A DNA stretch of 64,000 bases. It comes from Thermomonas flagellata (GTDB lineage: Bacteria; Pseudomonadota; Gammaproteobacteria; Xanthomonadales; Xanthomonadaceae). Made by a program: the position numbers and the translations under genes. Below, piece by piece: positions 10,842 to 19,163 of the stretch. The stretch covers positions 1 through 64,000 of the forward strand of contig NZ_JAJOZK010000013.1 in the NCBI RefSeq assembly GCF_022419185.1. Reading direction: 5' to 3'. Below the pieces are notes generated by a model that was given only the letters and a program-made list of their open reading frames with translations, searched no databases and had not been told where the DNA came from. Within the stretch, counting starts at the first letter, position 1. Each line of letters opens with the position of its first letter.

Positions 10842-11423
10842 TCAGCGGCAGCGCCCGGAGGAACCGCTGCCGCAGCGGCGGCCGTCGGTCCAGGTCGCGC
10901 CGCTGAAGTCGGCCCCTTCCAGGTCCACGTTGACCAGCTTGGAGCCGCGCAGGTCGGCGTCGCGGAAGTCGGCGCCGGTCAGGTCGGTGTTGGTGAACTG
11001 CGCGGCGATCCGCGCCTTGCGGAAGTCGGCCTCGCCCAGTTCGGCGTTGGTGAAGCGGGCGCCGGTCAGGTCGGCGCCGGCGAACACCGCGCGGCGTGCG
11101 CTGGTGTTGGTGAACTTGGCATGCCGCAGGTCGGCGTTGCGGAAGTCGTGGCCGTCCAGCTCGGTGTTGACGTGGCGCTTGCCGGCCGGCTGGCGCTTGG
11201 ACGCCGCTTGGGCGGCGGGCCTGCCGGCGGACGTGGCGGTGGAGGTGGCGGTGGAGGCGGCGGTGCCGGCCTCGGCGCGGGTGGCGCCGGCCCGGGTGTC
11301 GACCTGCACCTGCGCGCCGGCGCCGTGCACGCGTACGCCGGTGGCGTCCACCTGCACGCTCTGCGCGTGCGCGGCGGCGGCCAGCAGCAGCAAGGACAGG
11401 GTCGGGATCGCGATGCGGGACAT
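10842..11423 (-). CDS. Secreted pentapeptide-repeat protein
   Basis: A 193-residue protein with a Sec signal peptide (cleavage likely after AHA, residue 20), a Ala/Thr-rich low-complexity region (residues 40-80), then about 14 consecutive five-residue repeats of the A(D/N)LXX type (HDFRNADLRHAKF, GADLTGARF, EADF, GADFRDADLRGSKL). Such repeats fold into a right-handed quadrilateral beta-helix. A C-terminal pair of cysteines (CGSGSSGRC) may be disulfide-bonded. AAGGAGAG lies before the ATG. Function unknown; an export signal argues against a gyrase-protecting role. The gene is convergent with the C-N hydrolase, 4 bp apart. Confidence 0.85.
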   Translation of the reverse strand: MSRIAIPTLSLLLLAAAAHAQSVQVDATGVRVHGAGAQVQVDTRAGATRAEAGTAASTATSTATSAGRPAAQAASKRQPAGKRHVNTELDGHDFRNADLRHAKFTNTSARRAVFAGADLTGARFTNAELGEADFRKARIAAQFTNTDLTGADFRDADLRGSKLVNVDLEGADFSGATWTDGRRCGSGSSGRCR

Positions 11424-11473: not shown

Positions 11474-12025
11474 TCAGCCGAGCAGGCTCACGCCCGGCAC
11501 CAGCCACAGCGACAGCCCCGCCAGCCCGCTGCCGATCGCGGTCGCGGCGAGCACGTCGCTGGGGTAGTGCAGGCCCAGCACCACCCGCGAGGCGGCCACG
11601 CTGGCGGTGAACGGCACCAGCAGCCAGGCCAGCGCGGGATAGTGCGCCATCGCCACCAGGCTGAAGGCCACCGCGTGCAGGGTGTGCCCGGAGGGGAAAC
11701 TGAACTCGTCCAAGGGCGCCACCCAGGCGCGGATGCGCAGGTCGCTGGCGAACGGCCGCGGACGCCGGGTCCAGCGCTTGAGCGCCTTGTACAGCAGCAG
11801 CGCGAGCAGCCCGGTGGCGGCCAGGTGCAGGCTGGCGCGCAGGCCGGCCCAGCCGTCGGCGGCGACCAGCGCGGCCATCAGCAGGTACCAGAACACCCCG
11901 TCGCCGAGCCGGCTGACCGCGGCGAAGTAGCGCAGGATGCCGCGGCAGCCGCACAGGCGGTTGGCGCGCACGCACCAGCTGCGCTCGGCGGCCAGCCAGC
12001 GGTCAGCGGGCAGCGGTCGCGACAT
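11474..12025 (-). CDS. PAP2 family phosphatase
   Basis: A 183-residue membrane phosphatase of the type that dephosphorylates lipid phosphates such as phosphatidate or undecaprenyl pyrophosphate. All three motifs are present: KALKRWTRRPRP (near residue 81), FPSGHT (near 113) and SRVVLGLHYPSD (near 146). Four to five transmembrane helices are visible. The start overlaps the upstream glycosyltransferase by 23 bp, so the two are translationally coupled. With Pho-box-like repeats ahead of the pair, a role in turning phosphatidate into diacylglycerol for glycolipid synthesis is possible, but this is inference. Confidence 0.9.
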   Translation of the reverse strand: MSRPLPADRWLAAERSWCVRANRLCGCRGILRYFAAVSRLGDGVFWYLLMAALVAADGWAGLRASLHLAATGLLALLLYKALKRWTRRPRPFASDLRIRAWVAPLDEFSFPSGHTLHAVAFSLVAMAHYPALAWLLVPFTASVAASRVVLGLHYPSDVLAATAIGSGLAGLSLWLVPGVSLLG

Positions 12026-13151
12026 GCGCGCCTCCGGGCAGCGTGAGCGTGCGCAGGATGTGGTCGAAGTCCGCCGCGACCTGGGCCGGGCGCAGCGCCG
12101 CCACCGCCGTGCGGCAGGCGGCGCGCATGCGCGCGCGCCGCGCATCGTCGGCGGCGATCCGGACCGCGGCGGCGACGAAGCCGGCATCGTCGCCGGCGGC
12201 GATCGCCGCGCCGTGCTCGCCGTCGCGCAGCACCTCGCGCGCGGCGCCATAGTCGAACGCGACCGTCGGCACGCCGCTGGCCAGCGCCTCCAGGGTGACG
12301 TTACCGAAGGTCTCGCTGTGGCTAGGGAACAGGAACAGGTCGCCGCTGGCGAAATGGCGCGCCAGGGCTTCCCCGCGCTGCACGCCGCAGAAGATGAAGT
12401 CCGGGTTCTCGCGCTGCAGCGCCTCGCGCACCGGGCCGTCGCCGACCCACACGAAGCGCGCGTCCGGGCGCCGTGCCTGCAGGGCGCGGAAGGCGCGCAC
12501 CGCCAGCGGCAGGTTCTTCTCGGCCGCGATCCGGCCGACGTAGATCGCGGCCGGGGCGTCGTCGTGCAGGCCCCACTGCGCGCGCAGGGCGCGGTCGCGC
12601 CGCGCGGGATCGAACAGCTCGGTGTCCACCGCGCGCGCCAGCCGCACCACGTTCTGAAAGCCGATCCCCTGCAGGAACTGCTGCAGCTCGCGGGTCGGCA
12701 CCAGGGTCGCCTGTGCGCGGTTGTGGAAGCGGCGCATCCAGCGCAGCGCGGTGCCCTGCAGCCACGGCGCGCCATAGTCGCGCATGTAGTCGTCGAAGCG
12801 GGTGTGGAAGCCGGTCGCGGCGGGGATGCCGAGCTGGCGCGCGGCGCGCAGCGCGGACCAGCCGAGCGGGCCCTCGGTCGCCACGTAGATCGCGTCCGGA
12901 CGCGCCTGCCGCCAGCGCTGGCGCAGGCGGCGGGTCGCCGGCAGGCCGAACTTCAGGCCCGGGTAGCGCGGCAGCGCGGCGCCGCGCACCAGCAGGGTGT
13001 GCGGCACCAGGTCCGGGTCCGTCGCCTGCCGCGGGCGCACCAGCAGCACCTCGTGCCCGCGCGCGCGCAGGCCCTGTTCCAGCCCCTGCACGGTCATGGC
13101 CACGCCGTTGACTTCCGGCGGGTAGGTCTCGGTGACGATGCTGTAGCGCAT
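12003..13151 (-). CDS. GT4-family glycosyltransferase (SqdX/MgtA-like)
   Basis: A 382-residue GT-B glycosyltransferase. The N-terminus IVTETYPPEVNGVAMTVQGL, the FHTRFDDYMRDY segment near residue 135, and the C-terminal donor site FPSHSETFGNVTLEALASG with its E-x7-E pair place it with GT4 enzymes such as SqdX and MgtA that glycosylate diacylglycerol lipids. The ATG at 13151 is chosen because the conserved N-terminus starts there. It is the first gene of a two-gene unit with a PAP2 phosphatase and follows phoB-phoR-ppk1-ppx on the same strand. Acceptor and sugar cannot be read from sequence. Confidence 0.88.
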   Translation of the reverse strand: MRYSIVTETYPPEVNGVAMTVQGLEQGLRARGHEVLLVRPRQATDPDLVPHTLLVRGAALPRYPGLKFGLPATRRLRQRWRQARPDAIYVATEGPLGWSALRAARQLGIPAATGFHTRFDDYMRDYGAPWLQGTALRWMRRFHNRAQATLVPTRELQQFLQGIGFQNVVRLARAVDTELFDPARRDRALRAQWGLHDDAPAAIYVGRIAAEKNLPLAVRAFRALQARRPDARFVWVGDGPVREALQRENPDFIFCGVQRGEALARHFASGDLFLFPSHSETFGNVTLEALASGVPTVAFDYGAAREVLRDGEHGAAIAAGDDAGFVAAAVRIAADDARRARMRAACRTAVAALRPAQVAADFDHILRTLTLPGGAHVATAAR

Positions 13152-13189
13152 GCGCGGCGTCCGGGTTTGCGGCAGCGTGCGCACGCGCG

Positions 13190-13229
13190 GTGACGCGCGC
13201 ATGGCGCGGGGGTGACCGCGGGGTGACAG
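13190..13229 (-). promoter_or_regulatory. Candidate tandem Pho boxes upstream of glycosyltransferase-PAP2
   Basis: Reading toward the gene, CTGTCAC (13229-13223), CGGTCAC (13218-13212), a degenerate GCGCCAT (13207-13201) and GCGTCAC (13196-13190) start at exact 11-bp intervals. The Pho-box consensus is two CTGTCAT repeats spaced 4 bp, i.e. 11 bp start to start. The first pair matches 11 of 14 positions. A -10 at the expected distance is not obvious, which lowers confidence. Confidence 0.45.
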
Positions 13230-13310: not shown

Positions 13311-14855
13311 TCAGGCCGGGTCGATCTGCAGCTGCACGCCGAGGCCGAGCATGTCCTCCGGCTCGCCGGCCAGGTCCGCGCGCAGCAGCGGGCGCGCCTG
13401 CAGCCAGCCGCGGTCGAGCGCCAGGTGCAGGCGCTCGCCCTCGGCCTGCAGCCGCAGCAGCGGGATCGGGTCGGCCTCGTGCGAGCGGTGCAGCAGCACC
13501 GCCAGCCGCAGCAGGGCGGCGCTGCGGCGGGTCGCCGCCAGCAGGCGGTCGGGGATCATCTCGAACGCGGACTTGGGCACGCTGCGCCGGTGCACCCGCA
13601 CCAGCGCGGCCAGCACCCGCTGCTCCTGCTGCGAGAACCCGGCGATGTCCGAGTGCTCGAGGATGTAGGCGCCGTGCACGTGGTGGCCGCTGTGCGCGAT
13701 CGCCAGCCCGACCTCGTGCACGCGCGCCGCGCGCGCCAGCATCGCGCGGTCGTCGGCCTCCAGTGCCCAGTCGCGCGCGACCTGGTCGAACAGCCGCAGC
13801 GCGGTGGCCTCGACCCGGCGTGCCTGCTCCTGGTCCACGCCGTAGCGCTGCATCAGCGCCGCGATCGAGGCCTCGCGCGGGTCGTCGGCGCCGCCGCGGC
13901 CGGCGAGGTCGTGCAGCACGCCCTCGCGCAGGGCGGCCTTGCTCACCTGCATGCGCTGCAGGCCGAGCGCGTTGAACACCGCCTCCAGCACCAGCAGGCC
14001 GCCGGCGATGATCGGGCGGCGGTCGGCCGACAGGGTCGGCAGGTCGATCGCCTCGATCCGCTCCGCCTGCAGCAGGCGGTCGCGCACCTGCGGCAGCGCC
14101 TCCGCGGTGATCGCGCCCTTGGTCAGGCGCAGCGCGGCGCAGATCTCGCCGATCGCCTTGATCGTGCCGGAGGAGCCGATGGCCTCGTCCCAGCCGAGGT
14201 TGCGGTAGGTCGCCGCGAACTGCTGGAACTCGGCGGTGATCTCGGTCAGCGCCGCCTGCCAGCGCTTGCGCCCGAGCTTGCCGGTCGGGAAGAAGCGGCG
14301 GGTGCTGGCGACGCAGCCGGCCTGCAGGCTCTCGCGCTCGAGCGGCTCGAACCCGGAGCCGATGATGCATTCGGTCGAGCCGCCGCCGATGTCGATCACC
14401 AGCCGCAGGCGGCCGGGACGCGGCGGCTGCGCATGCGCCACGCCCAGGTAGACCAGGCGCGCCTCCTCGCGCCCGGAGATCACCTCGATGGCGTGCCCGA
14501 GCGCAGCCTCGGCCGGGCGCAGGAAGGCCTCCGGGTCGCGCAGCTGGCGCACGGTGTTGGTCGCCACCGCGCGCACGTGGTGCGGCGGCAGGTCGGCCAC
14601 GCGCTGGCCGAAGCGCGCGAGGCAAGCCAGCGCGCGGTCGCGCACCTCCGGGGCCAGCCCGCCCGCGGCGTCCAGGCCCTCGGCCAGGCGCACGGTCTCG
14701 CGCAGGCGGTCGATCACCCGGTACTGCCCGAGCACGCGCTGCGCGACCACCATGTGGAAGCTGTTGGAGCCGAGATCGAGCGCGGCCAGGCGGTCGCCGT
14801 CGCGCAGCGGCAGCGGCGCCACCCGCGCGCCGCGCCGGCGCGGGGGCGTCCTCAT
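13311..14855 (-). CDS. ppx: Exopolyphosphatase (Ppx/GppA family)
   Basis: Releases phosphate from the ends of inorganic polyphosphate. The 514-residue protein starts its fold with LAALDLGSNSFHMVV (phosphate-1 loop of the actin-like ATPase fold), continues with VIDIGGGSTE (phosphate-2 motif, about residue 140) and SSGTIKA, and has a C-terminal HD-like region (RVHEVGLAIAHSGHHVHGAYIL). This is the Ppx rather than GppA architecture by length. It lies 64 bp downstream of ppk1, the enzyme that makes its substrate. ATG at 14855 chosen; a GTG at 14864 is possible. Confidence 0.93.
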   Translation of the reverse strand: MRTPPRRRGARVAPLPLRDGDRLAALDLGSNSFHMVVAQRVLGQYRVIDRLRETVRLAEGLDAAGGLAPEVRDRALACLARFGQRVADLPPHHVRAVATNTVRQLRDPEAFLRPAEAALGHAIEVISGREEARLVYLGVAHAQPPRPGRLRLVIDIGGGSTECIIGSGFEPLERESLQAGCVASTRRFFPTGKLGRKRWQAALTEITAEFQQFAATYRNLGWDEAIGSSGTIKAIGEICAALRLTKGAITAEALPQVRDRLLQAERIEAIDLPTLSADRRPIIAGGLLVLEAVFNALGLQRMQVSKAALREGVLHDLAGRGGADDPREASIAALMQRYGVDQEQARRVEATALRLFDQVARDWALEADDRAMLARAARVHEVGLAIAHSGHHVHGAYILEHSDIAGFSQQEQRVLAALVRVHRRSVPKSAFEMIPDRLLAATRRSAALLRLAVLLHRSHEADPIPLLRLQAEGERLHLALDRGWLQARPLLRADLAGEPEDMLGLGVQLQIDPA

Positions 14856-14919
14856 CGGCGGCACCTCGCGGGCGGCGGTGGGCAGGGCGGCATGCGCGGA
14901 TTATCGCCGGCGCCCGCGC

Positions 14920-16998
14920 TCACGCGTACAGCCCTTCGAGCAGCGCCAGTTGCGCCGAGAACGGCGCTTCGCCCTGTTTGGGCTGGCAGCGCCGGTACTG
15001 CCCGTCGGCGTGCAGCTCCCAGGCGTTCTGGTTGTCGGCCAGGTAGTGCAGCAGGCCCTCGCGGTGCACGCGCGCGGCCAACTGCGGGTCCAGGATCGGG
15101 AACGCGGCCTCGACCCGGCGCAGCAGGTTGCGCTCCAGCCAGTCGGCGGAGGAGCAGAACAGCTCCGGGTGGCCGTCGTTGCCGAACCACCAGACCCGGT
15201 GGTGCTCGAGGAAGCGGCCGACGATCGAGCGCACCCGGATCCGCTCGGACACCCCGGGGATGCCGGGGCGCAGGGTGCACGCGCCGCGCACGATCAAGTC
15301 GATCTCGACCCCGGCCTGCGAGGCGGCGTACAGCGCCTCCACCACCTGCGGCTCGTTGAGCGCGTTCATCTTGGCCAGGATCCGTCCCGGGCGGCCGGCG
15401 CGCGCCAGCTCCGCCTCGCGCGCGATCCGCTCGAGTACCCCGCGGTGCAGGGTGAACGGGGCCTCGAGCAGGCGCTTGAGCTTGAGCGGCGCCGACAGCC
15501 CGGACAGCTGCTGGAAGATCAGGTGCACGTCCTGGCCGATGTCCGGGTCGGCGGTCATCAGGCTGAAGTCGGTGTAGGCGCGCGCGGTGCCGCTGTGGTA
15601 GTTGCCGGTGCCCAGGTGCACGTAGCGGCGCAGGCGGTTGCCCTCGCGGCGCACGATCAGCAGCATCTTGGCGTGGGTCTTGTAGCCGACCACGCCGTAC
15701 ACCACCTGCACCCCGGCGTCCTGCAGGCGGTCGGCGAGGCCGAGGTTGGCCTCCTCGTCGAAGCGCGCGCGCAGCTCCACCACCACGGTCACGTCCTTGC
15801 CGTTGCGCGCGGCCTGGATCAGGTGCTCGACGATCGGCGAGTCCTTGCCGGTGCGGTACAGGGTCTGCTTGATCGCCAGCACGTTCGGGTCCTCCGCGGC
15901 CTGGCGGATCAGCTCCAGCACCGGGACGAACGCGTCGTAGGGGTGGTGCAGCAGGATGTCGCCCTGGCGGATGGCGTCGAACATGGTCTCCAGCTCGCGC
16001 ACCAGGCGCGGCTGGAACGGCCGGAACTTGAGGTCCGGGCGCGCCACCATGTCGTACACCTGCACCACCCGGTTGAGGTTGACCGGGCCGTTGATCTTGT
16101 AGACCGCGTTCGCCGGCAGGTCGAAGTTGTCCAGCAGCATGCGCACCACCTCGGGCGGGCAGCGCTCGTCGATCTCCAGCCGCACCGCGCGCAGGTAGCC
16201 GCGGCCGAGCAGCTCGTCGCGCAGGGCGAGGGCGAGGTTGTCGACGTCGTCCTCGTCCACGATCAGCTCGGAGTTGCGGGTGACCCGGAACTGGTGTGCG
16301 CCCTTGACCTGCATGCCGGGGAACAGCTCGTCCACGAACGCCGACAGCACCGAGCTGAGGAACACGAAGTCGTGGCAGTCCTCGCGGCCGTCCTGCGCCG
16401 GCAGGCGGATGATGCGCGGCAGCGAGCGCGGGGCGCGCACGATCGCCATGTGGCCCTCGCGGCCGAAGGCGTCGCGGCCTTCCAGCAGCACCACCACGTT
16501 CAGCGACTTGTTGAGGATCTTCGGGAACGGGTGCGCCGGATCCAGCGCCAGCGGCGACAGCACCGGCATGATCTCGTCGCGGAAGTAGTCGCGCAGCCAG
16601 GCCGCCTGCTCCGGGGTCCACTGCTCGCGCTGCAGCAGGCGGATGCCCTCCTCCCACAGCGCCGGGCGCAGCTCCTCGTAGAAGCAGCGGTACTGCGCCT
16701 CCACCAGTTCGGCCGCGCGCTCGTGGATGCGCGCCAGCACGGTCGCCGGGGCCAGCCCGTCGGCGGCCGGCGGCAGGTTGAGGTCGATCGCGTGGCGCAC
16801 CGAGCCGCCGCGGATCTCGAAGAACTCGTCGAGGTTGGTGCAGCTGATGCACAGGTAGCGCAGCCGCTCCAGCAGCGGCACGTTGGGGTCGCGCGCCTGC
16901 GCCAGTACCCGGAAGTTGAAGTCGAGCTGGCCGAGCTCGCGGTTGGCGTACAGGCTGGGGTCGCGCAGGGACGGCGGTGGCTGGGGGTGGTCGCTCAT
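14920..16998 (-). CDS. ppk1: Polyphosphate kinase 1
   Basis: Makes inorganic polyphosphate from ATP through a phosphohistidine. The 692-residue protein has the PPK1 N-domain (YANRELGQLDFNFRVLAQA), the head domain, and two phospholipase-D-like C domains with GTGNYHSG (histidine near residue 465, the autophosphorylation site by homology) and FLEHHRV near residue 599. Length is as in E. coli (688). The start overlaps the phoR stop by 4 bp, so it is translationally coupled to the phosphate sensor kinase and should be induced with it when phosphate is scarce. Confidence 0.97.
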   Translation of the reverse strand: MSDHPQPPPSLRDPSLYANRELGQLDFNFRVLAQARDPNVPLLERLRYLCISCTNLDEFFEIRGGSVRHAIDLNLPPAADGLAPATVLARIHERAAELVEAQYRCFYEELRPALWEEGIRLLQREQWTPEQAAWLRDYFRDEIMPVLSPLALDPAHPFPKILNKSLNVVVLLEGRDAFGREGHMAIVRAPRSLPRIIRLPAQDGREDCHDFVFLSSVLSAFVDELFPGMQVKGAHQFRVTRNSELIVDEDDVDNLALALRDELLGRGYLRAVRLEIDERCPPEVVRMLLDNFDLPANAVYKINGPVNLNRVVQVYDMVARPDLKFRPFQPRLVRELETMFDAIRQGDILLHHPYDAFVPVLELIRQAAEDPNVLAIKQTLYRTGKDSPIVEHLIQAARNGKDVTVVVELRARFDEEANLGLADRLQDAGVQVVYGVVGYKTHAKMLLIVRREGNRLRRYVHLGTGNYHSGTARAYTDFSLMTADPDIGQDVHLIFQQLSGLSAPLKLKRLLEAPFTLHRGVLERIAREAELARAGRPGRILAKMNALNEPQVVEALYAASQAGVEIDLIVRGACTLRPGIPGVSERIRVRSIVGRFLEHHRVWWFGNDGHPELFCSSADWLERNLLRRVEAAFPILDPQLAARVHREGLLHYLADNQNAWELHADGQYRRCQPKQGEAPFSAQLALLEGLYA

Positions 16999-18341
16999 GC
17001 GGCGCTGGCGTCGGCGTGCCGGGAATCACGGGGCAGGAGCCGCTCGGGGCCGAAGCGGCAGGCGAACACGCTGCCTTTGCCGACCTCGCTGGCGATCTCC
17101 AGGCGCGCATGATGCAGCCCGAGGACGTGCTTGACGATGGCCAGCCCGAGGCCGGTGCCGCCGGACTCGCGCGAGCGGCTGTTGGACACTCGGTAGAAGC
17201 GCTCGGTGATGCGCGGCAGGTGCGCGGCCGGGATGCCGTAGCCGGTGTCGCGCACCGACAGGCTGGCGCAGCCCTCCGGCTCGCGCGCGAAGCGGATCAC
17301 GATCTCGCCGCCGGCCGGGGTGTAGCGGATCGCATTGCTGACCAGGTTGGAGAACGCGCTGTGCAGCTCCTTGTTGGAGCCGAGCAGGTCGAGGCCGACC
17401 TCGTCGACCGCGCTGATCCGGTGCCGGCCCTGGCTGAGCGCCTCCGCCTCGCGGCGCAGGGTGGCCAGCATCGGCCCCATCGCCACGTGCTCCTCCGGCA
17501 GGTGGTCCTGCGCCTCCAGCCGCGACAGCGTGAGCAGGTCCTCGACCAGCTGGTTCATGCGCTGCGACTGCCGCTGCATCTCCGCCAGCATCGGCGCCCA
17601 GTCCGGCTTGTCGTCCGGGTCGAGCATCTCCAGGTAGCCGTGGATCACGGTCAGCGGGGTGCGCAGCTCGTGCGAGACATTCGCCACGAAGTCGCGGCGC
17701 ATGTGCTCCAGGCGCATGGTGCGGGTCACGTCGCGCGCGACCAGCAGCCACAGCTCCTCCGAATACGGGATCAGGCGCAGGTTCAGGCGCATCCCCGGAT
17801 CCACCGGTGAGGCGACGTCGGTCAGCGGCTCGGCGTTGCGCCCGGCGGCCAGCCACTGCGCCAGCGGCAGCGGGCGCAGCGCGGCCACCAGCGCGGCGCC
17901 CTGGTGGCGCGGGTAGTGCAGCCCGAGCAGCGGGGTCGCCGCCTCGTTGAACCACAGTACGCGCTGGGTGTCGCGGTCGACCACCACGATCGCGTCCGGC
18001 AGCGCCGCCGCGGCGGCGCGGTAGGCGCGCAGCATCGCCAGCAGGCGGCGCTTGCGCGTGCGCATCTCGGCCTGGCTGCGGTAGAGCAGGCGGTCCAGCT
18101 CGTTCCACACGCCCTCGCCGCTGGGCGGCGCCAGGCGCTGGCGCGCGGTCAGCCGCAGCAGCACCCCGCGCAGGCGCCAGTAGTGCCAGGCCACCACGCC
18201 GAGCGCGGCAGCGGTCAGCGCCGGCCACGGCTGTCCGAGCAGCAGGCCCGCGGCCAGCCCGAGCGCCAGCACCAGCAGCAGCTGGCCGAGGGTGCGGAAC
18301 CAGGCGGAGCGCGCGTTCGGCGACATGCGCGGAGTATCCAT
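16995..18341 (-). CDS. phoR: Phosphate-regulon sensor histidine kinase PhoR
   Basis: The membrane kinase that phosphorylates PhoB under phosphate limitation. The 448 residues hold two N-terminal transmembrane helices (about 17-36 and 40-55) with almost no periplasmic loop, as in PhoR, a PAS domain (about 110-205), the H box FVANVSHELRTPL with H224, the N box LVSNAIRYTP, and the G box DTGYGIP. It lies 36 bp after phoB and overlaps ppk1, defining a phoB-phoR-ppk1(-ppx) operon. Confidence 0.96.
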   Translation of the reverse strand: MDTPRMSPNARSAWFRTLGQLLLVLALGLAAGLLLGQPWPALTAAALGVVAWHYWRLRGVLLRLTARQRLAPPSGEGVWNELDRLLYRSQAEMRTRKRRLLAMLRAYRAAAAALPDAIVVVDRDTQRVLWFNEAATPLLGLHYPRHQGAALVAALRPLPLAQWLAAGRNAEPLTDVASPVDPGMRLNLRLIPYSEELWLLVARDVTRTMRLEHMRRDFVANVSHELRTPLTVIHGYLEMLDPDDKPDWAPMLAEMQRQSQRMNQLVEDLLTLSRLEAQDHLPEEHVAMGPMLATLRREAEALSQGRHRISAVDEVGLDLLGSNKELHSAFSNLVSNAIRYTPAGGEIVIRFAREPEGCASLSVRDTGYGIPAAHLPRITERFYRVSNSRSRESGGTGLGLAIVKHVLGLHHARLEIASEVGKGSVFACRFGPERLLPRDSRHADASAA

Positions 18342-18377: not shown

Positions 18378-19079
18378 TCAGGACGCCGCGGAGAACCGGT
18401 AGCCGGCCCCGCGCACGGTCTGCACCATCCCGTCCAGCCCGTGCGGCTCGAGGGTCTTGCGCAGGCGGCGGATGTGCACGTCGACCGTGCGCTCCTCCAC
18501 GTACACGCTGCCGCCCCACACGTGGTCGAGCAGCTGCGAGCGGCTGTACACCCGGTCCGGGTGGGTCATGAAGAAGTGCAGCAGGCGGTACTCGGTCGGG
18601 CCGATGTGGATCGCGGTGGACTGGCTGTCGGCCTCGGCGAACACCCGGTGCGCGGCGCCGTCGATGCGCAGCCCGCCGACCTGCACGCTGCCGTCCTCGT
18701 CGTCCTCGCGCGAGCGCCGCATCACCGCGCGGATGCGCGCCAGCAGCTCGCGCGCGGAGAACGGCTTGACCACGTAGTCGTCGACCCCGGCCTCGAGCCC
18801 GCCGACGCGGTCGTTCTCCTCGCCGCGCGCGGTCAGCATGATGATCGGCACGTCGCGGGTCAGCACTTCGCGCCGCCAGCGCCGCGCCAGCTCCAGCCCG
18901 CTGGTGCCCGGCAGCATCCAGTCGAGCAGGATCAGGTCCGGCACCCGCTCCGCGATCGCCGCCTGCGCCTCGCGCCCGTCGCTGGCGGTGACCGGCTCGA
19001 ATTCGCCCTTGCGCAGGGCGTAGGCGACCATGTCGCGGATCGCGGGCTCGTCTTCAACGATCAGGATGCGCTTGTGCAT
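18378..19079 (-). CDS. phoB: Phosphate-regulon response regulator PhoB
   Basis: The DNA-binding partner of PhoR; activates phosphate-starvation genes by binding Pho boxes. The 233-residue protein has a receiver domain with acidic pocket and phospho-acceptor D53 (LLDWMLPG), the switch residues in MLTARGEE, the KPFS motif, and an OmpR-type winged helix near residues 140-230 with [14 protein letters not shown] as recognition helix. Upstream are a Pho-box-like repeat and a well-placed -10, suggesting positive autoregulation as known in other bacteria. Confidence 0.97.
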
Positions 19080-19129: not shown

Positions 19130-19163
19130 ATTACACGACCGTTTTGTGACGCTTGGGTGACGC
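19130..19163 (-). promoter_or_regulatory. Candidate Pho box and -10 of phoB
   Basis: Two GCGTCAC repeats (19163-19157 and 19152-19146) are spaced exactly 11 bp and stand where a -35 would be; 10 bp later comes TGTAAT (19135-19130; 5/6). This is the geometry of PhoB-activated promoters. The repeats match CTGTCAT at 4 of 7 positions each. The first repeat is also half of a GGTGAC-GCT-GTCACC palindrome (19156-19170). Confidence 0.6.

Follow-up and report, generated by a model that had tools for sequence, protein, structure and literature searches.

In the window, the 64,000-nucleotide stretch of DNA that was analysed, a gene for an Agt2-type glycosyltransferase (12003..13151, minus strand) and a gene for a PAP2-superfamily membrane lipid phosphatase (11474..12025, minus strand) probably form a two-gene operon that is activated by PhoB and serves the synthesis of phosphorus-free membrane glycolipids, with the PAP2 protein supplying diacylglycerol from phosphatidate. 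Rather than a new kind of system, the operon is a variation on the established Agt strategy of lipid remodelling. The new element is the pairing of a lipid phosphatase with a known type of lipid glycosyltransferase, a combination not described in the phosphate-starvation response, and literature searches found no paper on a Pho-controlled glycosyltransferase-PAP2 pair. When glycolipids replace phospholipids on low phosphate, the diacylglycerol is thought to come from phospholipase C. A conserved operon of Agt2 and a phosphatidate-type phosphatase, present without the phospholipase PlcP in whole lineages, makes the diacylglycerol source directly testable by simple deletions, and the pair suggests that glycolipids are made in Xanthomonas, Stenotrophomonas, Lysobacter, and Acinetobacter.

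Promoter and gene order

The minus-strand order is phoB (18378..19079), phoR (16995-18341), ppk1 (14920-16998), ppx (13311-14864), a gap, the glycosyltransferase gene, and the PAP2 gene, and these open reading frame positions agree with the original prediction that the pair lies directly after phoB-phoR-ppk1-ppx. The response regulator gene phoB was assigned from the open reading frame list together with its orthologues and their promoters, and it provides both context and the source of an independent motif. The glycosyltransferase gene comes first and overlaps the PAP2 gene by 23 nucleotides; the earlier view of PAP2 as the partner of the glycosyltransferase under one promoter is supported. 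The end of ppx is 81 bp ahead of the array, which leaves space for a promoter belonging to the pair itself. Just 3' of the PAP2 gene is a gene for a signal-peptide protein with pentapeptide-like repeats of the form A-D/N-L-x-x (10842-11420, minus strand).

Sequence, motif score, and alignment predict four PhoB half-sites (GTCAC, GTCAC, GCCAT, and GTCAC) at an 11-bp pitch, equivalent to two abutting Pho boxes (13190..13227, minus strand; half-site starts at 13227, 13216, 13205, and 13194). The claim that CTGTCAC (13229-13223) and CGGTCAC (13218-13212) are spaced by exactly 11 bp is confirmed by the coordinates. A third GTCAC (13194-13190) is also present two periods later as claimed, but the count of three half-sites missed the weaker GCCAT (13205-13201), which fills the gap before it. 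The -10 hexamer CACGCT (13174..13179, minus strand), located from an alignment of 56 family promoters, begins 10 bp past the fourth half-site. Promoters activated by PhoB have a Pho box where the -35 element would otherwise be, and the window array fits this layout, ending approximately 10 bp upstream of the -10 box. The half-sites resemble CTGTCAT and have an 11-bp pitch, as does the Escherichia coli Pho box consensus (as quoted in PMC3465305).

The half-site matrix was built solely from the phoB promoters of seven relatives and the window, all of which have GTCAY-N6-GTCAY-AAAAC or a close form; the Pho box of the window phoB (GTCACCCAAGCGTCAC; 19146..19161, minus strand), identified by pattern match and comparison of phoB promoters, is part of this reference motif. 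With the matrix from phoB promoters only, dinucleotide shuffling of the 150 bp upstream never reproduced the score of the array in 3000 trials. In the whole of the 2.52-Mb, 99.9%-complete host genome, of which the window is contig 10, the four-site pattern is matched perfectly only once, at the promoter of the glycosyltransferase-PAP2 pair. These two results rule out a chance motif. The shorter pattern GTCAY-N6-GTCAY has 14 genome matches, versus 2 for the reversed control, among them the ones ahead of phoB, pstS, and a DUF47-pit pair. Some of the two-half-site matches, near genes for a penicillin amidase, priA, tamB, an Ig-domain protein, and an ABC transporter, have no clear phosphate link and may have arisen by chance.

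Pho-like sites were noted at three places on contig C14 of the host genome. Two tandem boxes (C14:63157-63210; L121) lie ahead of a gene whose product has a TonB C-terminal domain and may be a phosphate-regulated energiser of outer-membrane uptake, and CTGTCATGGTTTCGTCAT (C14:217718-217733; L123) precedes the gene for a large signal-peptide protein resembling a TonB-dependent receptor, a candidate phosphate-regulated receptor. The box CTGTCACGGAACCGTCAT (C14:247499-247514; L124) precedes a protein judged by eye to be DUF47-like, followed by a Pit-family phosphate transporter (PF01384).

The motif scan upstream of orthologous pairs that was proposed with the original prediction places the 11-bp array at the same position across the Lysobacteraceae. 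Averaged over 56 non-redundant promoters, the four-site score at the 11-bp pitch is 16.5; shuffles give -23.1 +/- 0.8, and each of seven other periods stays below -11. In 38 of the 56, the distance from the start of the array to the glycosyltransferase ATG is 75 or 76 bp, and the A at position 2 and the T at position 6 of the -10 hexamer, 10 bp past the last half-site, are invariant in all 56. Outside the family, 15 of the 28 loci scored have a significant array (p<0.01), among them PA0842 of Pseudomonas aeruginosa and the glycosyltransferase-PAP2 locus of Acinetobacter baumannii. Family genomes without PlcP keep a significant array in all nine loci tested (p 0.001 to 0.002), although in Xanthomonas it is degenerate.

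When approximately 8 kb upstream of the pair was viewed in 20 relatives, seven had ppx as the immediate neighbour ahead of the pair, at most about 0.4 kb away, and in the remainder the pho genes were further off or beyond the viewed stretch. Copies of the pair located away from phoBR keep the 11-bp array, so that adjacency to phoBR-ppk-ppx is dispensable, which corrects the original prediction, and inheritance of the motif only through linkage to phoBR is ruled out. The more general claim of Pho-like control holds at the level of sequence, through the phoB-derived motif, the family-wide position, the 11-bp period, and the fixed distance to the -10. As a prediction, PhoB regulation of the pair is nearly certain, as far as sequence can show.

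The two enzymes

The glycosyltransferase (382 amino acids) has the GT4 domains PF13439 and PF13692 and is 82% identical to a glycosyltransferase from a Thermomonas MAG. This MAG matches at 100% a genome listed in the same genus, which would make the host a Thermomonas of the Lysobacteraceae. Its nearest characterised relative is PA0842/Agt2 of P. aeruginosa (51-52% identity), while identity to PA3218/Agt1 is 36%. The closest annotated relative found by tblastn lies immediately after plcH-plcR in P. aeruginosa, and these neighbours identify it as PA0842. In a quick tree of 72 glycosyltransferases, with SH-aLRT support instead of bootstraps and with small groups outside the family, the window protein falls in the PA0842 clade (51 rows, support 98), apart from the Agt1 clade (18 rows, support 99). 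When expressed in E. coli, PA0842 yields glucuronosyl-diacylglycerol (GADG) (PMC8528852). Domains, identity, and tree position predict a UDP-sugar:diacylglycerol glycosyltransferase; glycolipid activity is likely, and the sugar is most likely to be glucuronic acid donated by UDP-glucuronate, with glucose as the alternative. The host genome has two genes of the UDP-glucose-dehydrogenase family that could supply UDP-glucuronate. The original description of the enzyme as resembling SqdX/MgtA-type diacylglycerol glycosyltransferases was sound with respect to a role in lipid remodelling, but the nearest relative among the sequences compared is PA0842/Agt2 and not SqdX or MgtA specifically; closer kinship to either is unlikely given the close match to PA0842.

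The PAP2 protein (183 amino acids; PF01569, 75 bits) has the three catalytic motifs K-x6-RP, PSGH, and SR-x5-H-x3-D intact, as does every full-length relative checked. Its AlphaFold model (pLDDT 94.8) is closest in fold to YodM, PgpB, and LpxE-type PAP2 proteins, and the three motifs together with the membrane PAP2 fold identify it as a membrane lipid phosphatase. Linkage and co-occurrence suggest that its substrate would be phosphatidate. The active sites of PAP2 proteins normally face the periplasm, so the diacylglycerol would need to flip to reach the cytoplasmic glycosyltransferase.

Sources of diacylglycerol and competing explanations

PAP2 is beside the glycosyltransferase in every family locus scored. 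In the tree, it adjoins 45 of the 51 Agt2-clade rows and none of the 18 Agt1-clade rows, of which 15 adjoin PlcP instead; four Agt2-clade loci have both. The host genome also encodes a PlcP homologue (C2:95822-96625, 47% identical to P. aeruginosa PlcP), but this gene is behind OlsF on another contig, and PAP2 is the neighbour of the window glycosyltransferase. A weak match to the LpxH profile on the same contig proved to be this PlcP. The ornithine-lipid synthase OlsF passes its curated cut-off (686.8 versus 620); olsF and plcP are adjacent (C2:95819-98343; L220:3320-5844, minus strand) and probably co-transcribed. The olsF promoters of 15 relatives and the host genome have an 11-bp array, of four half-sites in the relatives, at the same distance to the -10, with only the first half-site clean in the host genome, which suggests that olsF-plcP is a second Pho-controlled lipid operon. 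The idea that PAP2 takes the place of phospholipase C thus fails for the host genome: with PlcP encoded behind OlsF under a similar promoter, both routes are available and PAP2 is not strictly required.

A version independent of phospholipase C is possible in other members of the family. Among 149 family genomes, with PlcP absence called at one threshold (E 1e-25) and some genomes being draft assemblies, the glycosyltransferase is present in 128 and PlcP in 81; 48 have the glycosyltransferase with no detected PlcP, while one has PlcP without the glycosyltransferase. Co-occurrence of the two is significant when uncorrected for kinship (Fisher p = 3.5e-7). Five genomes were sampled from the genus group with a glycosyltransferase that shows 97% identity to that of Xanthomonas euroxanthea, and all five belong to the set without PlcP; the five of an X. 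albilineans-like group have it. Xanthomonas and Stenotrophomonas relatives have an LpxH-like gene after PAP2, approximately 0.6-1.2 kb past the glycosyltransferase (L023, L034, L046, L061, L063, and L141); the PlcP-like match beside the pair in these genera reaches only 41-49 bits, and the sequence reads as an ordinary LpxH.

The mechanism proposed for the pair begins with phosphate starvation, when PhoB would bind the four 11-bp-spaced half-sites ending 10 bp before the -10 and recruit sigma-70 polymerase, a step well supported by sequence. The Agt2-type enzyme would then add its sugar, most likely glucuronic acid and otherwise glucose, to diacylglycerol, as close homology supports. PAP2 would dephosphorylate phosphatidate to diacylglycerol, and newly made phosphatidate would thereby be diverted to glycolipid instead of phospholipid, with recovery of the phosphate. 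PlcP from the olsF-plcP operon would be a second source of diacylglycerol, and since that operon has the same promoter type, PAP2 and PlcP would act in parallel in the host. In relatives without PlcP, PAP2 would be the main source.

Other explanations differ in the part of this scheme that they replace. If the operon is Pho-controlled and makes glycolipid, but diacylglycerol comes from PlcP, then PAP2 may instead recycle undecaprenyl diphosphate or another periplasmic lipid phosphate and so scavenge phosphate. This reading, which is rather unlikely, draws on the best NCBIfam matches of PAP2, the undecaprenyl-diphosphatase SepP (51 bits) and then PgpB (45 bits), although both are far under their cut-offs of 250 and 261. 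It also draws on the presence of PlcP in the host genome, on the use of PlcP by Agt2 in P. aeruginosa (PMC8528852), and on the loci that have both PlcP and PAP2 beside the glycosyltransferase, which imply that the two need not be alternatives. It accounts poorly for the 48 family genomes in which the glycosyltransferase was detected but PlcP was not, and for the fact that PAP2 tracks the Agt2-type glycosyltransferase specifically and not phosphate genes in general. It is very improbable that the acceptor is phosphatidylglycerol (as for GpgS) or another lipid, glycosylated for control of surface charge. The best NCBIfam profile of the glycosyltransferase is indeed GpgS (N-acetylglucosaminyl-phosphatidylglycerol synthase, NF053787), nearly full length, but the score of 146.6 bits is far under the curated cut-off of 480, so membership was rejected, and the GADG-making PA0842 scores almost as high on the same model (135 bits). 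The partners of GpgS, the gpgD deacetylase and gpgF flippase (PMC12713373), are not beside the window glycosyltransferase, and a phosphorus-containing lipid under PhoB control would save nothing.

A still slimmer chance attaches to the repeats belonging to a regulator other than PhoB, given that several OmpR-family regulators use 11-bp direct repeats. Against this, the half-site is that of the phoB promoters (GTCAYN6GTCAYAAAAC) and recurs upstream of pstS and the DUF47-pit pair, while PA0842, which has the same array, is reported to be induced when phosphate is low and to possess a Pho box (PMC8528852). The reading of the pair as a PhoB-activated Agt2-PAP2 operon fed by phosphatidate is preferred.

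In A. baumannii, a related glycosyltransferase (39-41% identity) is likewise paired with PAP2 (L186:4787-6728), behind three half-sites followed by TAATCT at the same spacing. This pair is a candidate source of U3, an unidentified non-amine lipid of low-phosphate cells (PMC11828411). A wider proposal is tentative, with its chances put somewhat below even. In it, Agt2-PAP2 would be a branch of phosphate-starvation lipid remodelling that works independently of phospholipase and is widespread in the Gammaproteobacteria. Where PlcP is missing, as in core Xanthomonas, a PhoB-induced PAP2 that diverts phosphatidate would be the only dedicated supplier of diacylglycerol, and the A. baumannii pair could account for U3.

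Comparison with known systems

Several described systems share parts of the proposed scheme. In the lipid remodelling of phosphate-starved plants, a phosphatidate-phosphatase route feeds diacylglycerol to glycolipid synthesis; the conversion of phosphatidate to diacylglycerol for glycolipid is the same as that proposed here, while the enzymes and regulation are unrelated. In Desulfovibrio alaskensis G20, glycolipid and OlsF ornithine lipid appear together on low phosphate through an Agt and OlsF response, and the part of the account consulted describes no PAP2 partner (PMC5193443). GpgS of P. aeruginosa shares the GT4 fold with the window glycosyltransferase and gives its best NCBIfam profile, but has phosphatidylglycerol as acceptor and a gpgSDF context (PMC12713373), and the window protein is far below the model cut-off. 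The marine PlcP-Agt operons also switch from phospholipid to glycolipid under Pho control, through diacylglycerol and an Agt-type enzyme, but their Agt is paired with a phospholipase C (PMC4796936). The same study names dephosphorylation of phosphatidate as the alternative source of diacylglycerol and notes that its two organisms appear to be without bacterial phosphatidate phosphatases. In the PlcP-Agt1/Agt2 lipid renovation of P. aeruginosa (PMC8528852), Agt2 is the nearest characterised relative of the window glycosyltransferase, both have the four-half-site array, and both genomes encode PlcP. The arrangement differs, however, since PA0842 follows plcH-plcR with no PAP2 neighbour, whereas the window glycosyltransferase gene overlaps that of PAP2 and PlcP is elsewhere with OlsF.
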